Positions 4,479-10,427 of a stretch of 64,000 nt of DNA are shown here, piece after piece (position 1 is the stretch's first letter; every line of letters starts with the position of its first letter). Made by a program: the position numbers and the translations under genes. The notes below the pieces were generated by a model. That model searched no databases. It saw nothing but the letters and a program-made list of their open reading frames with translations, and had not been told where the DNA came from. The DNA comes from Candidatus Nanopelagicaceae bacterium (GTDB lineage Bacteria; Actinomycetota; Actinomycetes; Nanopelagicales; Nanopelagicaceae): NCBI GenBank assembly GCA_018883365.1, contig VEQF01000003.1:1-64000 (forward strand). Reading direction: 5' to 3'.

Positions 4479-5498
4479 ATGGAGTCGATGTTCTGGATGG
4501 GTGGGAGATTGGCCACCGGCCTAGAACTCGTGACCGATGATTTAGAAGCATTACGCAGCCCTGGGTTCTGGGCGGTAGTTGGAAGTTTTGAATCAAAGTG
4601 GACCTTGGCCAAGTTTTCTCATGTGAGCGAAGAAACCAATTTGCTTCAAATAAAGCAAAACGTGGGTTGGAGTGCAATTACTAAGGATCGGTGGCAGAGC
4701 AATCTGAGCCAGCATGGGTATGTTGAGTATGTAGAAAAAATCAGAGAGCGCATTGCCGAGGGCGAGGTCTACCAAGTAAATGCCTGCCGAGTATTAAGTG
4801 CGGATAACAGAGAAAATGCGTCGCTAATTGGTCTCGCTAAGAGAATTCATTTGGCAAACCCTGCTCCATTCGCAAGCTACCTATCTTTGCCAAATTTGGA
4901 GTTAGCTTCTGCATCGCCGGAAAGATTTATATCTCTGCAAGATAGAAACATTTTATCGAGCCCAATCAAAGGCACATCTGCGAACGATAGATTTCTGGAA
5001 AAGGATGAGGCTGAAAATTTAATGATTGTCGATTTGATTAGGAATGATTTGGGCGCAGTTGCAAAAGTTGGAACGGTCACTACGCCGCGTTTGCTAGCCA
5101 CAGAGAAACATCCTGGACTTTTTCACTTAGTTTCGGATGTCTCTGCCCAACTAGCTGATGATCTAGATGTTGTTGATTTACTCCGGTCAGCAATGCCGCC
5201 TGGCTCGGTAAGTGGCGCTCCAAAAAGCTCCGCTTTGAGAATCATTCAGAGTCATGAAGGAGCTCGAGGTCCATACTGTGGTGCTATCGGATGGGTTGAA
5301 AACGGAAATGCAGAGCTTGCGGTAGGAATTAGAACTTTCTGGCAGGAATCTGAAGAAAGTCTTCACTTTGGTACGGGCGCTGGAATAACGTGGGGAAGTA
5401 ATGCAGAGCAGGAGTGGCAAGAAACTGAGTTAAAGGCGCAACGATTGATTGCAATTGCCGCTGGTGAGATTGAAGGCGTATATGAAGATTTGGCATAA
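4479..5498 (+). CDS. pabB: Aminodeoxychorismate synthase component I (PabB)
   Basis: Chorismate-binding enzyme that makes 4-amino-4-deoxychorismate for folate synthesis. It carries family signatures: GEVYQVNACR, the PIKGTS region, the DLIRNDLG helix and PPGSVSGAPK, followed by the GAIGW and FGTGAGITW motifs. ATG at 4479 gives 339 residues. The frame is open further left, but that extension would run into the opposite-strand tRNA-Gly gene, so I reject it; ATG at 4488 is also possible. The start has no clear Shine-Dalgarno or -10. It overlaps pabC by 17 bp. No glutaminase (PabA) domain is fused and none is nearby. Confidence 0.9.
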   Translation: MESMFWMGGRLATGLELVTDDLEALRSPGFWAVVGSFESKWTLAKFSHVSEETNLLQIKQNVGWSAITKDRWQSNLSQHGYVEYVEKIRERIAEGEVYQVNACRVLSADNRENASLIGLAKRIHLANPAPFASYLSLPNLELASASPERFISLQDRNILSSPIKGTSANDRFLEKDEAENLMIVDLIRNDLGAVAKVGTVTTPRLLATEKHPGLFHLVSDVSAQLADDLDVVDLLRSAMPPGSVSGAPKSSALRIIQSHEGARGPYCGAIGWVENGNAELAVGIRTFWQESEESLHFGTGAGITWGSNAEQEWQETELKAQRLIAIAAGEIEGVYEDLA

Positions 5499-8642: not shown

Positions 8643-9176
8643 ATGAGCTCAACGGAGATTACCGGTGGCGCTGGGATGCCAGATCGTTGGGAGCGGTTAT
8701 GGACGCCTCATCGAATGGCCTATTTAGCAGGAGAAAATCGGCCTAAGCCTGATAACGATGTGCCTTGCCCTTTTTGCTCTATCCCAAGCAAAAGCAATGA
8801 AGATGCTTTGATTGTTGCCAGAGGACAAGAGGTTTATGCCGTATTGAATCTGTATCCATACAACGCTGGACATCTATTAATTTGCACTACACGGCATGTC
8901 GCTGATTTAACTGAACTTACTGAATCTGAGCGAAATGAAATGCAAGCTTTTACTGCGCACGCAATGACAACTCTGCGCAAAGTTTCAAATTGTGGTGGAT
9001 TCAATATAGGACTCAATCAAGGGGCGCTATCTGGAGCAGGCGTCGCAGATCATATTCACCAGCATGTTGTTCCTCGTTGGTTTGGCGATGCAAACTTTAT
9101 GCCAATAATCGGTCAGACAAAGGTGCTTCCAAAGTTGTTAACTCAGACACGAGATGAAATTGCTAGTGCTTGGTAA
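8643..9176 (+). CDS. HIT family hydrolase/phosphorylase
   Basis: 177-residue histidine-triad protein that acts on nucleoside polyphosphates or adenylates, probably Ap4A-like substrates. The active-site triad is DHIHQHVV near residue 139, and an upstream CPFC segment probably supplies zinc ligands. The length and tail (VPRWFGDANFMP) match the longer actinobacterial HIT proteins encoded between thrS and pgsA. ATG at 8643 lies 3 bp after thrS, so the two are surely co-transcribed. The last 14 bp overlap, tail to tail, an opposite-strand gene. Confidence 0.93.
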   Translation: MSSTEITGGAGMPDRWERLWTPHRMAYLAGENRPKPDNDVPCPFCSIPSKSNEDALIVARGQEVYAVLNLYPYNAGHLLICTTRHVADLTELTESERNEMQAFTAHAMTTLRKVSNCGGFNIGLNQGALSGAGVADHIHQHVVPRWFGDANFMPIIGQTKVLPKLLTQTRDEIASAW

Positions 9177-9807
9177 CTGAGTTCAAATACCCCTGAATTT
9201 CTTTCACGCCAAAATTACGATTTGTTCCTAGGGGCAGTGCAGGCACAAATAATCCTTCAGATAATCCAGTCGCTCCGAACTCTTCAAACTGTTCATCAAA
9301 TTCCACTTTAAAATCAGCCACCAGGCTTTTCAATTCGTCGTCCGCAGGATACGACTTCATTTCCGAGTGAGAGTAATCATGAACAGTGAGATCAGATAGA
9401 GAAATCAGACCGGAAGGTTCTCCTACCTCATCATGTAGTACCAAATAGGGAGTTGAAACCTGTTCTAGTACGCGGTTTGCAATCAAAACCATGTCATCAA
9501 AGTCTGACTCACTTAATTCTAGGCCATTAACAATTACTAACCGAGGAAATTGACGTTCTGATAGGTATTGCCAGAAGTCGATCATGCTTTTTGAAACACC
9601 CGTTTTAGCGTTGATCAATAATGCCACCGCATCAATGTCGCGCATCACCGCTTCAAAATCATTATCTGAATCAGAGAGGATTGATGCTGTGATTGTTCCT
9701 GTGAATCTGAGAGCTACTTTCTCAGGATTTGCTGATTCATGTCCGGCAATCAACCAGCTGGGTGAAGTGCCCGCGGCGCTTCCTGGCTCAATATTGGTTG
9801 ACTGCAC
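9163..9807 (-). CDS. EF-G-like G-domain protein lacking the P-loop
   Basis: 214-residue minus-strand protein. Residues about 48-115 follow the second half of an EF-G/EF-G2 GTPase domain: FEAVMRDIDAVALLINAKTG corresponds to the segment after the DxPG motif, and PRLVIVNGLE takes the place of the NKxD strand. The C-terminal GLFVPALPLGTNRNFGV resembles the end of an EF-G domain I. There is no GxxxxGK[ST] P-loop, no DTPG, and NKxD is degraded to NGLE, so GTP hydrolysis is not expected. GTG at 9807 is preceded by TAGGCT-N6, which supports real expression. Homology is inferred by eye; function unknown. It sits between HIT and pgsA, which usually adjoin. Confidence 0.72.
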   Translation of the reverse strand: MQSTNIEPGSAAGTSPSWLIAGHESANPEKVALRFTGTITASILSDSDNDFEAVMRDIDAVALLINAKTGVSKSMIDFWQYLSERQFPRLVIVNGLELSESDFDDMVLIANRVLEQVSTPYLVLHDEVGEPSGLISLSDLTVHDYSHSEMKSYPADDELKSLVADFKVEFDEQFEEFGATGLSEGLFVPALPLGTNRNFGVKEIQGYLNSVTKH

Positions 9808-9813
9808 CCAGAA

Positions 9814-9819
9814 AGCCTA
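9814..9819 (-). promoter_or_regulatory. Predicted -10 box for the EF-G-like gene (leaderless)
   Basis: TAGGCT on the minus strand, followed by TTCTGG and then GTG at 9807. The hexamer and spacing are the same as before ruvC. The box ends 3 bp before the pgsA start, so the two divergent 5' ends share the same bases. Confidence 0.55.
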
Positions 9820-9821
9820 CG

Positions 9822-10427
9822 ATGAGCCCGATGATTCAGAATCGATTTAGAGCTCCAGTTACGGCATTTATTACACCCATAGCAAAGGGCATGCTCAAAC
9901 TTGGTCTAACTCCTAACTCTGTGACCGCCGTCGGTGCCATCGGTGGTTCAATCGCAGCTATTTATTTCTTTTCTATTGATGAGTTCTTTATCGGGACTCT
10001 AGTTGTTGCATTATTTGCATTGAGCGACTTGTTTGATGGAACCATGGCCAGACTCTCTAACTCTGGATCGACAAGATGGGGAGCATTAATTGATTCAACT
10101 TTGGATCGAATCACAGATGCCGCGATTTTCATTGGCATTTTGCTTTACGCGTATGAATCAAATTCGACGTTGATTTCATATCTGGCAATATATTCATTGG
10201 TCACCGGTGCGTTAATCCCTTATATAAGAGCAAAAGCTGAAAGTTTGGGAATTGATTGCAGTGTTGGCATTGCAGAGCGCGCGGAGAGATTGATAATTGT
10301 TTTGATTGGAACCGGTTTGTATGGTCTCGGCATTGATCAATCATTAGCCGGATCGCTGTTAATTATCTCTTTTGCTGGAACCATAACTATATTTCAGCGA
10401 ATGCACGTTGTTTATCGAGCGGGATAA
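9822..10427 (+). CDS. pgsA: CDP-alcohol phosphatidyltransferase, probable phosphatidylinositol phosphate synthase
   Basis: Membrane enzyme that transfers a phosphatidyl group from CDP-diacylglycerol to an alcohol. The full signature DxxDGxxAR-x9-GxxxDxxxD is visible from about residue 69 (DLFDGTMAR to GALIDSTLD), flanked by several hydrophobic helices. Its position before patA and pimA points to phosphatidylinositol-phosphate synthesis with inositol phosphate as acceptor. ATG at 9822 (or 9831) begins the protein; a longer reading frame to the left would overlap the opposite gene and lacks family similarity. Only 14 bp separate it from the divergent EF-G-like gene, so its promoter probably lies inside that gene. 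Confidence 0.92.
   Translation: MSPMIQNRFRAPVTAFITPIAKGMLKLGLTPNSVTAVGAIGGSIAAIYFFSIDEFFIGTLVVALFALSDLFDGTMARLSNSGSTRWGALIDSTLDRITDAAIFIGILLYAYESNSTLISYLAIYSLVTGALIPYIRAKAESLGIDCSVGIAERAERLIIVLIGTGLYGLGIDQSLAGSLLIISFAGTITIFQRMHVVYRAG

Follow-up and report, generated by a model that had tools for sequence, protein, structure and literature searches.

The closest described relatives of the gene studied here are the actinobacterial EF-G2 proteins (also EFG II or FusA2; NCBIfam NF009377; PDB 9k0z, 9k10), which consist of five domains and retain the P-loop and the DTPG motif intact. According to statements in two papers that both cite Seshadri 2009 (PMC3150367, PMC3832671), the EF-G2 of Mycobacterium smegmatis binds guanine nucleotides and is without ribosome-dependent GTPase activity. 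Three glutamates of the G' insert were reported to touch L7/L12 in M. tuberculosis, and these residues are mostly conserved in EF-G2 (PMC8446442). The window analyzed here, which is the whole stretch of 64,000 nt from a Candidatus Nanopelagicaceae bacterium, contains a gene that we denoted as X and that corresponds to a single EF-G2 domain (Table 1). Its frame of 214 codons is uninterrupted, as a preliminary description of this DNA had stated, and lies on the minus strand, which that description did not name. The 3' ends of X and the HIT gene overlap convergently by 14 nt, and the 5' end of X lies near that of pgsA, which is transcribed in the opposite direction and for which the start at 9831 is favored over 9822.

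Table 1 Features of the X locus, with positions counted in the window.
Feature	Position	Strand	Remarks
HIT-family gene	8643..9176	+	Convergent with X
X	9163..9807	-	Lone EF-G2 domain I that lacks a P-loop; 214 aa, starting with GTG and ending with TAG
G' insert region	9343..9507	-	Residues 101-155; most constrained part of X (pooled dN/dS 0.054)
Former NKxD box	9517..9528	-	Residues 94-97; NGLE in X, TKLD in EF-G2
Former P-loop	9709..9744	-	Residues 22-33; GHESANPEKVAL where EF-G2 has GHSGAGKTTLVE (alignment with full-length EF-G2)
TAGGCT	9814..9819	-	Candidate -10 box for leaderless transcription of X, 6 nt upstream of the GTG
TACGAT	9818..9823	+	Putative -10 box of pgsA, 7 nt before ATG 9831
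pgsA	9831..10427	+	CDP-alcohol phosphatidyltransferase; divergent from X

Residues 50-166 of X matched positions 94-210 of the NCBIfam EF-G2 profile (NF009377) with an E-value of 5.5e-10, at a score of 38.3 bits that is below the equivalog cut-off of 890 bits, and Pfam GTP_EFTU gave only 16 bits, under the Pfam cut-off. The EF-G2 model was the best family match for 29 of the 30 X-family members in the alignment set, and a profile-profile comparison of the X family with full-length EF-G2 gave a probability of 99.7 (E-value 1.3e-25). When the predicted structure of X was compared with the PDB using Foldseek, the top match was 9k0z, in which EF-G2 of M. smegmatis is bound to the 70S ribosome (E-value 4.7e-11), with other EF-Gs next. 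A sequence-profile search with X also ranked 9k0z first (E-value 7.4e-12), followed by 1wdt, an EF-G homologue of T. thermophilus. The family, profile-profile and sequence-profile searches establish X as homologous to EF-G2 domain I, of which the core and the G' strands can be aligned, and the likeness to EF-G/EF-G2 noticed in the preliminary description is thereby upheld.

A further alignment set the X family against domain I of nine full-length EF-G2 proteins. In X, the former P-loop can still be made out by its strand and loop, but the lysine and the Ser/Thr of the motif are missing. The stretch spanning switch I and DTPG is deleted, approximately 24 residues are deleted from the G' helices, and the protein stops after domain I, with domains II-V absent. 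The missing P-loop and DxPG box and the altered NKxD box had been pointed out before, and the alignment agrees on all three. The AF2 model of X, built from an alignment of relatives, had a pLDDT of 89.4 and a pTM of 0.86; together with the Foldseek matches to EF-G, it confidently predicts that the GTPase fold is kept. Judging from its sequence, X is presumably unable to bind or hydrolyze GTP.

Taken together, X is very probably a nucleotide-free pseudo-GTPase, a binding module that arose from EF-G2 by being cut in place to one domain. A pseudo-GTPase had already been suggested, and it appears to be the best reading of a predicted GTPase fold with degenerate motifs that is maintained by selection. 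X would thus be an EF-G2 G domain that has lost its nucleotide site and kept a shortened G' insert, and would act as a constitutive protein-binding module, mainly via the G'/beta-sheet face. That X is preserved though apparently GTP-dead suggests that it does a useful job needing no GTP. Less firmly, its partner might still be the translation machinery, inherited from EF-G2, and X might modulate ribosomes or another factor without needing nucleotide.

The narrower proposal that X binds the ribosome or a translation factor independently of nucleotide through the G' face of EF-G2, acting perhaps as a brake or a competitor, is possible, although its chances are somewhat short of even. It fits with the ribosome-bound EF-G2 of M. 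smegmatis being the top match, and with the strongest constraint on X falling in G', the stalk-facing part of EF-G. However, the three glutamates by which G' reportedly touches bL12 (PMC8446442) are not conserved in X in the alignment, where they were mapped by motif and not by structure, and the G' helices are shortened. All switch-region contacts are gone as well, including those with the sarcin-ricin loop. The unconserved glutamates and the lost switch contacts weaken the case for a ribosomal target, and ribosome binding is put forward here as a hypothesis because of the former.

Upstream of X, the putative -10 boxes of X and pgsA share a TA on opposite strands, and 43 of 45 X loci preserve this overlapping divergent arrangement. 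The TAGGCT-N6-GTG start given in the preliminary description is present, but a -10 box driving leaderless transcription would account for TAGGCT better than a ribosome-binding site does. A sample of 118 genes from the genome of X had TANNNT exactly 6 nt before the first ATG/GTG 18 times, versus about once per position elsewhere. This peak, which was found again in four sampled relatives and was weakest in G024, is the signature expected of leaderless transcripts, and it displaced a Shine-Dalgarno reading of TAGGCT. Across the samples of G000, G022, G024, G032 and G162, TANNNT peaks lay 6-7 nt before starts, indicating that leaderless transcription is common in Nanopelagicales; the papers searched for this study included none that names Planktophila together with leaderless transcription, and none on 9k0z. 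In enterobacteria, bidirectional promoters are described whose -10 elements are reciprocal (PMC10268837). It should be noted that the 10-mer ATCGTAGGCT at 9814-9823 is conserved in 43 of 45 related loci, inner NNN included, far beyond the need of two TANNNT boxes. The same 10-mer, followed by N6-ATG, occurs in G022 (C25:35885-35903, L142) upstream of a PAC2-like gene that diverges from a metH-like one (both names read from translations), which raises the possibility that this 10-mer is a promoter core used repeatedly between divergent genes.

The promoter-like element in common with pgsA, and a slot beside pgsA that is kept across the class, could be taken to mean that X serves the neighboring phospholipid operon, perhaps as a regulator of PgsA or of the acyltransferase. 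We regard this as unlikely. The position beside pgsA is a weak argument, since the slot was inherited from EF-G2, and pgsA persists where EF-G2 has been lost. Furthermore, in genus g6 of the same family another gene lies between pgsA and the reduced EF-G2, and there the pgsA box is kept and the X box is lost.

X is under strong purifying selection. Pairwise dN/dS, obtained by simple counting and with dS near or above 1 in many pairs, was 0.04-0.15 for X, 0.01-0.04 for HIT and 0.04-0.07 for pgsA. Within X, dN/dS was highest at the N-terminus with the former P-loop (0.19), followed by the C-terminus (0.083) and the core (0.064), and was lowest in the G' residues listed in Table 1; constraint has shifted away from the nucleotide site. 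A slowly decaying EF-G2 pseudogene, caught at an intermediate stage of genome reduction, might be expected from the shortening or loss of EF-G2 in other families and from the fast evolution of the P-loop region. However, dN/dS stays low across pairs rich in synonymous changes, frames are intact in all 30 extracted loci and in nearly all order genomes listed, and the start, upstream motif and length of X are conserved across genera. Decay is thus very improbable and was ruled out on dN/dS and intact frames. The earlier statement that the gene is not random decay holds, its relatives having intact frames. The profile relationship to EF-G2, whose absence would have spoken against the preliminary description, is strong.

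A family search across the order found strong matches to X in 266 of the 296 genomes of Nanopelagicales, where a strong match means an E-value of 1e-8 or below and weaker ones around 1e-5 fit fusA. The remaining 30 genomes of the order gave no strong match. HIT was looked for in 18 of these: 17 were without the HIT gene of this locus and in one the contig ended inside it, which points to unassembled loci, and a true absence of X in some relatives was not accepted. The X frame was open in single-contig genomes too. The genome of X gave no match above the EF-G2 cut-off, which was exceeded in 15 genomes, all in other families. Reading from sizes and neighbors, the genome of X appears to encode a standard EF-G with an EF-Tu-like frame after it, plus LepA/TypA-like frames.

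The gene order at the compared loci, some of them clipped by contig ends, was thrS-HIT-X (opposite strand)-pgsA-acyltransferase-pimA-like. A full-length EF-G2 (~700 aa), its P-loop and DTPG intact, occupies the slot of X in the majority of the other actinomycete families examined, and it is encoded on the same strand. Within the family of X, genus g39 (G096) still has a 749-codon EF-G2 frame in the slot, with all five EF-G domains by Pfam, and genus g6 has forms of 354-363 aa without the P-loop. A phylogenetic tree of 183 columns, in which the EF-G2 backbone was poorly supported, placed the X sequences in a clade with a support of 100, joined to the g6 forms at 96, with G096 next at 68. Since slot and strand hold full-length EF-G2 in most families examined and in G096, and the g6 form has no P-loop, X is the EF-G2 gene of its lineage, reduced in place to domain I, and EF-G2 is its direct ancestor.

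HIT and pgsA are adjacent where EF-G2 is gone (L144, L146, L149, L153, L154, L155), which is best read as loss. The preliminary description called the pair normally adjacent, which is true only where EF-G2 was lost altogether; elsewhere EF-G2 lies between them. That a foreign gene was newly inserted between HIT and pgsA, as the title of the preliminary description implies and as this adjacency might suggest, is extremely improbable and was ruled out by synteny and the tree, the slot being that of EF-G2 across the class and X that gene shortened.

Several other arrangements were seen around the slot. Approximately 1 kb separates HIT from pgsA in L147 and L148 (G357, G498), with no EF-G2 detectable there. 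In genus g6 (L036, ~4800-5380), the frame between pgsA and the reduced EF-G2 is small and membrane-protein-like with a charged C-terminal tail. A 567-codon EF-G2-like frame with P-loop and DTPG adjoins HIT in L037 (G051 C171), and a full-length EF-G2 is found elsewhere in that genome. We do not claim that the g6 form retains domain V, as a single-comparison E-value of 0.033 is a weak hint without a Pfam match, and the model there had a pLDDT of 47 (low confidence).

EF-G2 has also been shortened elsewhere. In family f34, the slot holds EF-G2 forms of 232, 262, 391 and 423 codons (stop to stop) with lost or degenerate P-loops, beside full-length ones of 757-795 codons; dN/dS in this family comes from one pair with saturated synonymous sites. 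Family f39 has one form of 344 codons and one loss (L144). A 533-codon EF-G2 frame occupies the slot in L117 (G385), in a genome of 7 Mb, suggesting that shortening is not limited to small genomes unless this is a sequencing error. EF-G2 has been fully lost in other actinomycetes, so its function is dispensable there. One tentative and rather doubtful idea is that EF-G2 has, in its G'-bearing core, an ancestral function independent of GTP, which is a main selected activity of EF-G2 in actinobacteria, and that several lineages shed the GTPase and translocation parts and kept this core. X, with ~200 residues kept order-wide without GTP motifs and domains II-V, isolates the part of EF-G2 that selection keeps, and bears on the role of EF-G2 in actinobacteria, mycobacteria included. 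Because X is small enough for pull-down, crystallography and expression in a model actinobacterium, this role is directly testable.

Compared with known systems, the EF-G2 of M. smegmatis, as presented in the two papers cited above (PMC3150367, PMC3832671), is without ribosome-dependent GTPase activity, yet it is nucleotide-binding and full length, whereas X is a single domain presumably unable to bind nucleotide. X also resembles the pseudoGTPase domains without nucleotide binding, such as those of p190RhoGAP (PMC5593906), which keep a GTPase fold with degenerate motifs and are presumed binding modules. However, those are eukaryotic small-GTPase-like domains within larger proteins, whereas X is a stand-alone bacterial translation-factor domain that is predicted not to bind nucleotide. 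The archaeal aSelBL (PMC4342817) is, like X, a paralogue of a translational GTPase with a disrupted G domain, but it belongs to the SelB lineage and, unlike X, is not described there as a lone G domain.
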